From Mucilaginibacter sp. KACC 22063 (GTDB lineage: Bacteria > Bacteroidota > Bacteroidia > Sphingobacteriales > Sphingobacteriaceae): a stretch of DNA of 64,000 nt. Shown piece after piece: positions 46,609 through 51,278 of this stretch. The stretch is from contig NZ_CP117877.1 in the NCBI RefSeq assembly GCF_028736115.1, forward strand, positions 4,092,001 to 4,156,000, written 5' to 3'. The notes under the pieces are model-generated. The model had not been told where the DNA came from, did not search any database, and saw only the letters and a program-made list of their open reading frames with translations. Each line of letters starts with the position of its first letter. Position 1 is the stretch's first letter. Made by a program: the position numbers and the translations under genes.

Positions 46609-46931
46609 ATGCTATTTAAATTAATTACAAGGATAGAGTGCTTATCCTGCCAAAGGTTTAAGTAACATTTATGTTAACAAACCGCCTGATGCAGAAATGC
46701 TTGCATTAGTAATTAACCATTAAGCAACAAAACATTTCCCACTGGTTTCAAGTTCACTCTTATTACAACTTATTGAGGTAAAATGACTTCAGGATTTTGG
46801 ATCGGCATCTTTCTTGATATATTTTTAACGGATACTTCCCCATACTTTTTACGCTTACTAAATTGGCTCCTGACGTTCTTTTTAAACCGCAAGTACACTG
46901 CGGACCTGTTTGCAGGCCCGATACTGTATTA
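46609..46931. other. Divergent intergenic region
   Basis: Carries the promoters of the Spy-like gene and the kinase gene. A TTG at 46863 opens the kinase frame but its first 23 codons look non-coding. No terminator or repeat was seen. Confidence 0.5.
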
Positions 46932-48467
46932 ATGCATCAACAACAACGCGCCGGCTTAACTACCCAGGCTACTGAATTCTTCTCAAAACTATTTGATACC
47001 AGCGACTGGCCTCCGCGCTGGCATTGCGGCACCTGGTCTGATTTTCATGGCTGGTTATATATCATATCCGATCTGCTGATATGGGCATCTTATTTTTTAA
47101 TACCTGTGTTATTGATACGCATGGTAACAGGCCGCAAAGACATGCCTTTCCCGAAAATCGTGTGGCTGTTCGGCGCTTTCATTATTCTATGCGGTACAAC
47201 CCATCTTGTTGATGCCATTATTTTTTGGTGGCCTGCCTACCGTTTAAGCGCATTGATCCGCTTGCTAACGGCCATTATATCTGTATTTAGCGTATATGCT
47301 TTGTATCGTATACTGCCAATGGTGTTTTCGTTAAGAACGGTAAAAGATCTGGAGCATGAAATAAACGAACGCCGTATTGTGGAAGAAAAGCTTGCCGCAA
47401 GCGAATTTCTGCTTTCTGAAGCCGGCCGCGTTAGTAAAGCAGGCGGCTGGGAGTTTGACCGGCGTACACGACAGCTGACCTGGTTAAAAACTGTTTATGA
47501 TATTTTTGAACTGCCTTATAATACTGATCTTAACGATATTGATGTTGCATCGTTTTTTAACGAGCCTTACAAACAACAATTACTTACAGCTACACACGAA
47601 GCGGTAAAGCAAAAACGCCGCTTAGACCTTGAACTGTTACTTACCACCGCTCAGAACAACCCTATTTGGGTACGTATCATCGGCGAAGCGGTTTTAGATG
47701 ACCATGCGAACGTAATTAAACTGCGTGGCGTATTAATTGACATCAATAAGTATAAACTAAATGAGCTTGCACTTAACCAGTCGCTGGCATTGCTTAGCCA
47801 ACAGAACCAGCAGCTCAAAAACTTCACGCATATTTTATCACATAATATACGTAACCATGCAAGTAATATGTCGCTGCTGTGCAGCTTTATAGAAGAACCT
47901 GTAGGCAGTGATAACAATGCTGAAATCTTCGATAAGATGAGCAATGTTTCATCTGCGCTAAACAATACGCTCGATGATTTGTCTACAGCATTAAAAATAA
48001 GAGAAGGCGGTGTACATTCAGAGGAGTTAAGCTTTACAGAGATAACCAATGATGTATTAAACGTTATGAATATGGACCTGGAAACTAACAAGGCGATGAT
48101 AAGTACCGATTTCCAGGTCGACAAGGTTAATTTTCCGGGTATCTATCTGGAAAGCATCATTATGAATCTTGTATCAAACAGTATTAAATACCGAAAACCC
48201 GATCAACTACCTGTGATAAAGTTAAGTACTTACAAGAATACCGCAAACGATACCGTTTTAGAATGCAGCGACAATGGTATTGGCATTGACCTGCATTTAC
48301 ACGGACAAAAAATATTTGGTTTATATAAAACCTTCCACAAGCATAAAGACGCGCACGGCATAGGCCTTTTTTTAGTGAAGAACCAGATAGAATCTCAGGG
48401 AGGATTTATTGAGGTAGAGAGCACACCCGGAAACGGCACAACATTTAAAATAACGTTTAATGATTAA
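46932..48467 (+). CDS. Histidine kinase with an ethylene-receptor-like membrane sensor and PAS domain
   Basis: 511 residues from the ATG. Residues 41-135 form three membrane helices matching the ETR1 sensor: YIISDLLIWASYFLIP, then FGAFIILCGTTHL. The ETR1 residues needed for copper and ethylene binding (Asp25, Tyr32, Ile35, Pro36, Phe58, Ile62, Cys65, His69) are all here at a constant offset of 22: Asp47, Tyr54, Ile57, Pro58, Phe80, Ile84, Cys87, His91. A PAS domain follows (about 155-275). The phospho-acceptor is His304 in LSHNIRNHASN; the ATPase has Asn412/416, DNGIG (447-451) and HGIGL (475-479). The last eight bases overlap the regulator gene. Confidence 0.88.
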   Translation: MHQQQRAGLTTQATEFFSKLFDTSDWPPRWHCGTWSDFHGWLYIISDLLIWASYFLIPVLLIRMVTGRKDMPFPKIVWLFGAFIILCGTTHLVDAIIFWWPAYRLSALIRLLTAIISVFSVYALYRILPMVFSLRTVKDLEHEINERRIVEEKLAASEFLLSEAGRVSKAGGWEFDRRTRQLTWLKTVYDIFELPYNTDLNDIDVASFFNEPYKQQLLTATHEAVKQKRRLDLELLLTTAQNNPIWVRIIGEAVLDDHANVIKLRGVLIDINKYKLNELALNQSLALLSQQNQQLKNFTHILSHNIRNHASNMSLLCSFIEEPVGSDNNAEIFDKMSNVSSALNNTLDDLSTALKIREGGVHSEELSFTEITNDVLNVMNMDLETNKAMISTDFQVDKVNFPGIYLESIIMNLVSNSIKYRKPDQLPVIKLSTYKNTANDTVLECSDNGIGIDLHLHGQKIFGLYKTFHKHKDAHGIGLFLVKNQIESQGGFIEVESTPGNGTTFKITFND

Positions 48468-48867
48468 GGTAAATAAACTTTGTGTAATTGATGACGATGA
48501 GATATACACCTTTACCGTTAAGCGTCTAATTAAACAAACAGGTGCAGCCGAAGAAACTCTTTTCTTTGAGAACGGTCAGATGGCTATAGATCATTTCGTG
48601 AACTACCAGCACCAACCGGATATGTTACCAGAAGTTATTTTGCTGGATCTTAATATGCCTGTGCTTGATGGCTGGCAGTTTTTAGATCAGTTTACACAAC
48701 TGGTGCCTGCTTTTGATAAAAGCATTACCGTTTACATCGTAAGCTCGTCTATTGATGAAGCTGATTATATCCGGGCAAAGGCAATCAGAGAGGTTAGTGA
48801 TTTTATTGTAAAGCCAGTAAACGCAGACACTTTAAGAAACCTGGTCGGCCGTTTGAATGCCGCTTAG
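48460..48867 (+). CDS. Single-domain response regulator
   Basis: 135 residues: acidic pocket Asp11-Asp13, phospho-acceptor Asp63 in ILLDLNMP, the switch serine within SSS (95-97) and Lys118 in VKPV. No output domain, so it acts through protein partners or a phosphorelay. Its ATG lies inside the end of the kinase gene (eight-base overlap), so the two are a translationally coupled cognate pair. Confidence 0.93.
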   Translation: MIKVNKLCVIDDDEIYTFTVKRLIKQTGAAEETLFFENGQMAIDHFVNYQHQPDMLPEVILLDLNMPVLDGWQFLDQFTQLVPAFDKSITVYIVSSSIDEADYIRAKAIREVSDFIVKPVNADTLRNLVGRLNAA

Positions 48868-49142
48868 TGCATAGGCCCCATATGGAAACTATTTACGCAG
48901 GTACCAAAACCAATTATTAAAACAAGTAAACCTGCTAAGGCCCATGCCCACCTACTCTTCGCTATGGCCATAATGATACATACCACAAAGTGTATGATTG
49001 ATAATATGAAGGCAAAAAACACATTATCCTTATCAGACGCTACAAGGACAATGGTATACAATGCGAAGGCTAACAGGTTATAACCTAATATCGCAAGGTC
49101 TGGCGTGCGCTTTTTTGGTGGCTGTATAGGTTGCTCTGTCAT
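48864..49142 (-). CDS. Small membrane protein at the end of the Lgt-like/radical SAM operon
   Basis: 92 residues with three hydrophobic helices (about 17-37, 42-62, 68-83) after a proline-rich cytoplasmic start (TEQPIQPPKKRTPD). No family recognised. Its ATG overlaps the radical SAM stop codon by four bases (ATGA), a strong sign of coupled translation. Its own stop codon overlaps that of the convergent regulator gene. Confidence 0.75.
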   Translation of the reverse strand: MTEQPIQPPKKRTPDLAILGYNLLAFALYTIVLVASDKDNVFFAFILSIIHFVVCIIMAIAKSRWAWALAGLLVLIIGFGTCVNSFHMGPMH

Positions 49143-50536
49143 ACTGCTATTTCATTTCTTAAGGTTTCAAGATATGCCGCTTTATCATCCCGGTAAAACA
49201 GGTTCATGGTTTCAAACGGAATGATCTGCATGTCTTTATTTACAATATGCACGCATGATTTTTTAATGGCGCGCACATCAAAATTTTGCGCATCAATAAA
49301 GTTCATGATAATCACCCTGAACAGGTTATCATAACCAAGGCCCGGCGCATCAATCTGCGGCAGGCAGCACATAATAGAATGTAAATGCTCTTTGGCTACA
49401 TCAACAGAGTTACCTGTGCTAAACATATGCAGCAAGTGTTTTTTCAGTGTTTCATCCTGCTCATAAACAATGGTATTCCGCGAATTATCTAACAGGTCAT
49501 TCGGATCAATCATCCGGGTAAGCGGGAAAACGTTGCATCCTAATTTTAAGGCATAACCCATTACCAGCGCATCGGGGTTACAAGGTACCGGCAAAAGATC
49601 CTGCGCCGTAAAAACATTAGTTTGTTCAAGTATCGCCGTGCGCACCTCTGTCATGGTGTAACGGTCTGTAGCCGGATTAAAATTCTCTAAACGGCCTGCC
49701 TGTTGTGTAGGTTGAAGCGTAACGCCCCGTACGCAACGCTGCTGCAAAGCATAATCTATAATTGTGCCTATCTCGTCGGTATTTAAACCCTTTTGCAGGG
49801 TTACCACCAGCGTGGTTGACAGGTTATACTTATTCAGATGCTCGATAGCTTTAGCCCTTACCTCTCGAAGATCTTCGCCACGCAGCTGTTCTAACGCTTC
49901 CTTTTTAAACGAATCGAATTGCAGATAGATCTCAAAATCGGGCATGTAAGTGGCCAGCCTTTTAACAAACTCCTCATCTTTAGCTATACGGATGCCGTTG
50001 GTATTCACCATCAGGTGTTTGATCGGCTTCCGTTTGGCAATATCCAGTATCTCAAAAAACTGCGGATGCACGGTTGGCTCGCCACCGCTGATCTGTACCA
50101 CGTCTGGTTCACCCTCGTTGGCAACAATCACATCCAGCATCTGCTCAATTTCTTCAAGCGTACGGTGCCTGCCATAATGCGGCGATGACATAGCATAACA
50201 GGTTGGGCAACTTAAATTACAGCGGTCTGTAACCTCAATCACAGTAAGGCACGAGTGCTGCTCATGGTCGCGGCAAAGACCGCAGTCATAAGGGCAGCCG
50301 TAGTGCGTTTCGGCATTAAACTTCAAAGGCATTTCGCTGCGCTTGGCATAGTTGCGACAGTTTTTATAATACTCAATATCGGTGGCTATCAGCACCTTCT
50401 CAAAGCCGTGATGCCTGCAGTTTTTGAGCATATATACCTTATCATCTTCAAACACAATTTTTGCATCAACACGCCTTAAGCAGGTTGAACAAATGCTTAA
50501 AGTAAAATCATAATAAATATACGGACGCTCAGGCAT
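49139..50536 (-). CDS. Radical SAM enzyme of the Tes/MJ0619-like class
   Basis: 465 residues. The SAM cluster motif is Cys106-x3-Cys110-x2-Cys113 (CNLSCPTC), followed by SGGEPTVHPQ. A second CX3CX2C (CPYDCGLC, 81-88) precedes it with Cys96. An N-terminal rubredoxin-like part has Cys16, Cys19 and Cys40 around VYMLKNCRHHG. Further C-terminal cysteines (MCCLPQ) suggest more clusters. This layout fits the archaeal MJ0619 and tetraether synthase (Tes) group, which makes carbon-carbon bonds or adds methyl groups on unactivated carbons. The gene is sandwiched between, and overlaps, an Lgt-like gene and a small membrane protein gene, so a lipid-like substrate is plausible (inference). Confidence 0.85.
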   Translation of the reverse strand: MPERPYIYYDFTLSICSTCLRRVDAKIVFEDDKVYMLKNCRHHGFEKVLIATDIEYYKNCRNYAKRSEMPLKFNAETHYGCPYDCGLCRDHEQHSCLTVIEVTDRCNLSCPTCYAMSSPHYGRHRTLEEIEQMLDVIVANEGEPDVVQISGGEPTVHPQFFEILDIAKRKPIKHLMVNTNGIRIAKDEEFVKRLATYMPDFEIYLQFDSFKKEALEQLRGEDLREVRAKAIEHLNKYNLSTTLVVTLQKGLNTDEIGTIIDYALQQRCVRGVTLQPTQQAGRLENFNPATDRYTMTEVRTAILEQTNVFTAQDLLPVPCNPDALVMGYALKLGCNVFPLTRMIDPNDLLDNSRNTIVYEQDETLKKHLLHMFSTGNSVDVAKEHLHSIMCCLPQIDAPGLGYDNLFRVIIMNFIDAQNFDVRAIKKSCVHIVNKDMQIIPFETMNLFYRDDKAAYLETLRNEIAV

Positions 50537-51278
50537 AGGCTTTTTTTGATTTAAGGAACGGAAAAATAAAACTGGAGTAATAAATTAAACCAGCAATACA
50601 AGCTAACTGGATACTTGATAATCCGAAGCTAAAAAAATAATCGGGTTTAATAAACTCATCGCAAAATCTGAACAATAAGTAGCTCACCATTAATACTTTA
50701 AACTTACTACCATCTGCAAAATTGTGCTTTCTTTCTGTTATCAATAACGCGATCCAAAGTATCGCCCAAAACAATATTTCATACAAATTGGTAGGATGCC
50801 TGCGCACCCCATCGCCAAAATTAATTGCCCAGGGCAGGCTGCTTGGTGTACCATAAGTACCATCGGGCAAACCAGCAAAAAAGCAACCTAAGCGGCCAAT
50901 GATCATGGATAAACAGATGGGATACACCATTAAGTCGCCCGAAGAGGTATTTACTCCGATAATTTTCTTGGTAGCCTCTACCCCGACAAGCCCACCCAGC
51001 AAGCCGCCTACTATAGTCGTATTACCCATGAAGTAAACAATATTCATTTCTGAGAACTTATCCGGCCTTTCTAGTACCCCCAGAATATGCGAGCCTAAAA
51101 ATGCACCTATGGCAGCACCAATAAAAATAATCATCCGGTGCTGATCGCTGATGATGTCTTGCTTTTTATGCCGTAAATAAACATAAAACCTGTACCCTAT
51201 TGTATAAGCAAGCGTTTCGCATACAAAGTGTACAGGGATTTCGGCATTGCCGATGTGGATATTTACAGGAAAATGCAA
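50529..51278 (-). CDS. Divergent Lgt-superfamily membrane protein
   Basis: 249 residues with about seven membrane helices. It resembles prolipoprotein diacylglyceryl transferase in VGGLLGGLVG, MIIGRLGCFFAGLP, the RHPTNLYE segment and FRFCDEFIKPD. Residues important in E. coli Lgt seem changed: the His103 position in FHGG reads Val (IVGG), and Asn146 in GRLGNF is Cys (GRLGCF). It is therefore probably not the housekeeping Lgt but a relative acting on another acceptor. The stop codon overlaps the radical SAM start by eight bases. Confidence 0.82.
   Translation of the reverse strand: MHFPVNIHIGNAEIPVHFVCETLAYTIGYRFYVYLRHKKQDIISDQHRMIIFIGAAIGAFLGSHILGVLERPDKFSEMNIVYFMGNTTIVGGLLGGLVGVEATKKIIGVNTSSGDLMVYPICLSMIIGRLGCFFAGLPDGTYGTPSSLPWAINFGDGVRRHPTNLYEILFWAILWIALLITERKHNFADGSKFKVLMVSYLLFRFCDEFIKPDYFFSFGLSSIQLACIAGLIYYSSFIFPFLKSKKAYA

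Follow-up and report, generated by a model that had tools for sequence, protein, structure and literature searches.

The tested system that we found to be closest to the locus described here is AzoEtr1/AzoRR of Azospirillum brasilense. According to excerpts of the published account, ethylene is bound by residues 1-130 of AzoEtr1, and the D35A and C75A variants do not restore biofilm formation (PMC11819568). This proteobacterial receptor, published in 2025, makes out of date the view of an earlier note on this DNA that ethylene binding is established for plants and some cyanobacteria. SynEtr1 (slr1212) of Synechocystis, likened here via published descriptions, also joins an ethylene-binding domain (EBD) to a histidine kinase and has a separate response regulator, slr1213; it differs from the pair studied here in that it also senses light and that slr1213 activates csiR1 transcription (PMC11819568). 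Signalling by the plant receptors mostly does not use kinase activity, and there are very few microbes in which direct binding by a receptor of this family has been linked with physiology (PMC11819568). ETR1 of Arabidopsis carries a GAF domain and a fused receiver (PMC13012798), and its N-terminal Cys4 and Cys6 form interchain disulfides (PMC6586836). The excerpted part of a 2026 review treats the copper step of the ethylene receptor as a biogenesis checkpoint (PMC13012798). Another review places the domain in many proteobacteria and cyanobacteria, and its available text does not contain the string “Bacteroid-” (PMC7700396); in the available text of a further article, Bacteroidetes appear only for ACC deaminase (PMC10452086). 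Our literature search, which did not extend to the main bacterial-receptor papers, returned, among the papers listed, nothing linking the ETR1_N domain to Bacteroidetes or Bacteroidota, and an earlier mention is possible.

The window analysed here is a stretch of 64,000 nucleotides from contig NZ_CP117877.1 of Mucilaginibacter sp. KACC 22063. It encodes a kinase with an ethylene-receptor-type domain, the conserved residues of that domain and the motifs of a histidine kinase, directly followed by a receiver without an output domain (Table 1). Ethylene binding by a receptor of this type has already been demonstrated in a different bacterium; what we describe is a distinct Bacteroidota version. 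We think it rather likely that the pair is a two-component system with a Cu(I)-dependent sensor kinase for ethylene (or a small olefin) and belongs to a distinct Bacteroidota subfamily, in which we infer the ligand, the copper and the signalling. Ethylene sensing by the pair is likely, judged from sequence. The suggestion in the earlier note that it might sense ethylene or a small olefin draws its support only from homology, above all to AzoEtr1, a receptor with an identical order of domains and demonstrated ethylene binding.

Table 1 Features of the sensor pair, in positions of the window
Feature	Position	Strand	Remarks
Sensor histidine kinase	46863..48467	+	534 aa from TTG 46863, 511 aa from ATG 46932; N-tail, ethylene-binding-type domain, PAS-like domain, SHNIRNH-type DHp, HATPase
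N-terminal tail	46863..46931	+	C13 (46899-46901) and C17 (46911-46913), motif CGPVC; presumed to be translated in the source strain
Ethylene-binding-type transmembrane domain	47004..47351	+	Residues 25-140 (ATG numbering); PF25487, three predicted helices
Cys32 and Trp35 before helix 1	47025..47036	+	80/83 bacterial rows
Predicted Cu(I) ligands Cys87 and His91	47190..47204	+	Cys87 at 47190-47192, His91 at 47202-47204; 83/83 rows
PAS-like domain	47439..47741	+	PAS_9 26.2 bits, just below the cut-off of 27; modelled strands and helices 193-293
Kinase core	47745..48464	+	Phospho-acceptor His327 (TTG numbering) in SHNIRNH; HATPase_c
Stand-alone receiver	48460..48867	+	135 aa; phospho-acceptor by position Asp63; 8-nt overlap with the kinase end

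The ethylene-binding-type domain

A Pfam profile search placed ETR1_N (PF25487) at residues 39-133 of the kinase with E 1.5e-32 and 112.2 bits, against a curated cut-off of 27, and a profile search of the source genome returned this single match. HATPase_c was found with E 1e-15. With an E limit of 0.1, Pfam detected no GAF domain after the membrane part; a PAS-like region lies there instead. Residues H327, N435, N439, D470, G472, G474, G499 and G501 of the kinase core showed no variation across 23 aligned rows, and the receiver has one Pfam match only, Response_reg (E 2e-14). Together with the conserved residues described below, the PF25487 match bears out the reading of the locus as a two-component pair with an ethylene-receptor-type sensor, and the lone Response_reg match bears out the reading of its regulator as lacking an output domain, both put forward in the earlier note. 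The Bacteroidota origin given there likewise has sequence support.

The AF2 model built from 51 sequences (mean pLDDT 79.2) predicts the three transmembrane helices of an ETR1_N domain at residues 61-90, 97-120 and 126-156, followed by a linker helix at 160-187 (TTG numbering). In a full-length model (23 sequences; mean pLDDT 73.7, pTM 0.35), residues 193-293 form a PAS-like block, and there are also a pair of long DHp-like helices and an ATPase-like part; pLDDT is below 50 for the first 28 residues. On helical wheels, D47, Y54, F80, C87 and H91 deviate by at most 26 degrees from the conserved side of the helix to which each belongs, and I57, P58 and I84 by 44 to 54 degrees. A structure search of the PDB with the domain model gave 10 matches at E up to 10 and none at E ≤ 0.001; by sequence, no PDB chain covered the domain, all 50 best stretches beginning at residue 274 or beyond.

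Eight positions of the kinase, Asp47, Tyr54, Ile57, Pro58, Phe80, Ile84, Cys87 and His91 (ATG numbering), align with ETR1 Asp25, Tyr32, Ile35, Pro36, Phe58, Ile62, Cys65 and His69. The constant offset of 22 reported for these residues was confirmed. Compared with ETR1, the three-helix Cu(I) ethylene-binding domain is identical at 35 of 115 positions, and ETR1 is not known to have counterparts of Cys32 and Trp35. All eight residues are present in the kinase as the earlier note had it; the published account gives the number of essential residues as seven and not eight (PMC11819568).

We compared 83 bacterial rows, a part of all matches, obtained after identical domain stretches were dropped. They came from GTDB-genome loci (30 + 8, drawn from longer match lists), from 50 domain-bearing loci among the 80 retained of 127 named-contig relatives, and from 7 of 18 plasmid records. 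Y54, P58, F80, I84, C87 and H91 are each present in all 83 rows, I57 in 81 (Leu in the other two) and D47 in 79, the exceptions being two Asn, one Glu and one gap. Nine of the 96 columns of the domain are invariant and these include six of the eight ETR1 residues (hypergeometric P 2.4e-6, a value that concerns which columns are kept and not how frequent the domain is, since all 83 rows were gathered via similarity to the domain). At the position of ETR1 Lys91, which is predicted to bond with Asp25 (PMC11819568), Arg or Lys is found in 80 of the 83. The D47 rows with Asn need not be dead, because a receptor with the conserved Asp changed to Asn is still functional, with an affinity about 100-fold lower, according to excerpts of the 2026 review (PMC13012798). 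The three rows outside the Cys32/Trp35 count are L121, L122 and L123; the open frame of L122 starts inside the domain. L121 and L123, both from Bacteroidota, are very long ORFs (1567 aa) with Asn at the Asp25 position and no Cys32/Trp35 motif, and their domain is perhaps a low-affinity or altered sensor.

AzoEtr1, whose sequence we took from locus L117, resembles the kinase in having all eight residues and a Cys/Trp motif before helix 1 (AzoEtr1 Cys20). The two systems share the order EBD-PAS-kinase (AzoEtr1 525 aa) and an adjacent 135-aa receiver without output domain, overlapping by 8 nt, with the PAS match of the kinase studied falling below the Pfam cut-off. Identity reaches 47 of 123 positions in the ethylene-binding domain and 25% over the whole kinase. 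The H-box, however, reads AHEMSQP in AzoEtr1 and SHNIRNH here, the AzoRR and Mucilaginibacter receivers are weakly alike (E 0.004 over 72 residues), and AzoEtr1 lacks the N-terminal cysteine pair. The pair shares the layout of AzoEtr1 and yet represents a Bacteroidota variant of its own, distinguished by its cysteine-pair tail and a different kinase core; kinase and receiver are not of the same lineage as AzoEtr1/AzoRR.

In a quick tree of few columns, the Bacteroidota domains group on a branch far from those of AzoEtr1 and the cyanobacteria (support 98, length 1.2), so the ligand could have changed. The domain might then hold Cu(I) but respond to a different cue, be it copper status, carbon monoxide, some other olefin or the redox state, and the cysteine pair might belong to that sensor. 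Such a change would fit a distinct branch with its own signature and a clade-specific cysteine pair ahead of the domain, and copper-site residues do not reveal the identity of a ligand. Against it, the ethylene residues that are not copper ligands are about as conserved as those that are (Tyr54, Pro58, Phe80 and Ile84 in 83/83, Ile57 in 81), and we regard this reading as unlikely, though it is the strongest of the alternatives.

The N-terminal cysteine tail

Upstream of ATG 46932 the kinase frame, which ends with its stop at 48467 on the plus strand, remains open and contains one in-frame TTG (46863, 69 bases 5′ of the ATG) and no ATG or GTG. The kinase frame probably starts at this TTG, which adds 23 codons, and the ATG is probably the wrong start. 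A C-x(2-4)-C pair is present in 37 of the 40 rows of a Sphingobacteriaceae/Dyadobacter group (a 39-row tree fork with support 82, plus L003) and in none of the 43 other rows; in 37 of these the open frame ahead of the domain is shorter than 36 residues, so that the tail itself is absent. The exceptions within the group are L037 and L038, which have two cysteines at wider spacing, and L022, which has none. Both cysteines are invariant in the 32 rows with C-x3-C (32/32); the first of them is followed by Gly in 24 rows and by Asp in 7, and the other neighbours vary. The second cysteine sits 25-30 residues ahead of the start of the domain profile in all 37 pair-bearing rows.

It is improbable, in our view, that the CGPVC tail goes untranslated in the source strain and that the kinase begins at ATG 46932. 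ATG is the commoner start codon, and in relatives including L002, L014 and L015, as in the kinase studied, an ATG follows the cysteines and precedes the domain. But in L003, L011, L025 and L026 a TTG 5′ of the cysteines is the sole ATG, GTG or TTG ahead of the domain, and in others, L005, L009 and L016 among them, an ATG lies 5′ of the cysteines. Selection on the stretch between start and domain also argues for translation: dN was lower than dS in 7 of 9 pairs of relatives (some rows used twice, the kinase studied left out), and of the other two pairs one was identical and one saturated synonymously.

Taking the TTG start, the tail should lie outside the cytoplasm, because the three helices put the kinase inside. 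The earlier statement that ETR1 Cys4/Cys6 are not conserved is correct by position, as no cysteine of the kinase aligns with this subfamily I feature, but the choice of the ATG had cut off a tail with a different cysteine pair of its own, farther upstream. We do not claim homology between the two pairs. Tentatively, the periplasmic C-[GD]-x-x-C tail of the Bacteroidota subfamily, perhaps together with Cys32, may load Cu(I) onto the sensor or lock it by redox. Plants deliver copper via RAN1 and have a disulfide step via Cys4/Cys6; if the suggestion is true, the C-[GD]-x-x-C tail is a built-in counterpart of both, and a simple bacterium could serve to test how an ethylene receptor is loaded with copper. 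Cys32 and the cysteine pair found across the clade are concrete candidate residues for the delivery or holding of copper in an ethylene receptor.

Kinase types and proposed signalling

Sorting the 83 rows by H-box revealed that the domain is joined to at least four types of kinase, with 15 rows falling elsewhere. A receiver lies just downstream in 22 of the 25 rows with SHNxRNH kinases (none was found in the other three), in 12 of 15 with HDLQEP-like kinases and in 9 of 14 with HDLRAP kinases; none was found downstream of the 14 SHELKTP kinases. The counts without a receiver are upper bounds, because AzoRR itself escaped the receiver profile and a number of the loci are short. Among the flanking genes of the 50 named domain loci, the largest families contain receivers, and the others among the eight families listed occur in at most 6 loci. 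A related kinase core is found in PAS-SHNLRSH kinases paired with receivers (L060, L061, L077 and others, mostly Flavobacteriaceae), which differ in having no detected ethylene-binding domain; a receiver lies downstream in 19 of 30 EBD-less loci. It thus looks as if a kinase-receiver set common in Bacteroidota had been fitted with an ethylene-type sensor.

These EBD-less relatives, in which PAS is joined to a kinase of the same type and a receiver is often present, and the PAS-like fold in the model could also mean that the transmembrane domain merely anchors a PAS sensor in the membrane, but nine invariant columns, six of them ethylene-binding residues, are hardly expected of an anchor and many domain-bearing homologues have no match to the PAS of the kinase studied, which makes this very improbable.

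For the Cu(I)-dependent ethylene or small-olefin sensor that we favour, we propose the following mechanism. The kinase would be an inner-membrane dimer with its N-terminus outside, in which Cys87 and His91 of each monomer hold one Cu(I) and Asp47 tunes the site. Binding of ethylene or a similar small olefin to the copper within the membrane would shift the helices. Through the linker helix and the PAS domain, this shift would change, and by analogy with ETR1 and SynEtr1 most likely reduce, both the autophosphorylation of His327 and the transfer to the receiver residue Asp63. The receiver may then act through binding other proteins. The clade-specific cysteine pair would probably serve as a disulfide lock of the dimer, as ETR1 Cys4/Cys6 do, or as an aid to copper loading. 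If ethylene is bound, members of a phylum that is common in soil are able to perceive a plant hormone.

Spread and genomic neighbourhood

ETR1_N was detected in 39 of 149 genomes of the same genus (38 above the cut-off), 48 of 399 of the same family (46 above) and 21 of 395 in a sample of the phylum (all 21 above). The control genomes gave 0/14 in each of the three surveys. Matches with internal stop codons were seen in G383, G121, G194, G055 and G760 (locus L122), which suggests that the gene has decayed several times.

The domain row with the highest identity is that of Dyadobacter L033 (79%), from a different family than Mucilaginibacter; the nearest rows by tree path are from the same genus or from named Mucilaginibacter. 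An alpha-amylase-like gene, so named from reading its sequence only, lies upstream and divergent in Mucilaginibacter L031 and L053 and in Dyadobacter L033 and L035, with one small ORF between it and the sensor pair in L031 and L053. The identity of L033 and this shared neighbour hint at horizontal transfer, for which the tree has too few columns to give proof.

The source genome contains two partial matches to ACC deaminase, neither above the cut-off, and no second ethylene-linked gene was found in it. Its copper ATPases (two above the cut-off) were set aside as a clue, as such genes also occur in 13 of 14 control genomes.

Downstream of the pair, on the minus strand (48864-51278), are genes for a 92-aa protein, a radical SAM protein with an HMPTM zinc ribbon (PF23545) and an LGT-like protein. 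The radical SAM neighbour is present at 86% identity or more in 15 relatives. Ten of these were fetched; all ten keep the three genes together, and within the stretch fetched none has the sensor pair beside the radical SAM gene, although four carry an ETR1_N gene at another place. The sensor pair of Mucilaginibacter sp. Bleaf8 (L101), in contrast, lies about 2 kb from the radical SAM gene, and for this reason we do not claim the pair as a new insertion. A further ETR1_N-like kinase with an adjacent response regulator was observed near a type II Cas9 gene on plasmid p2 of Novosphingobium sp. ES2-1 (L114), a plasmid typed as conjugative.
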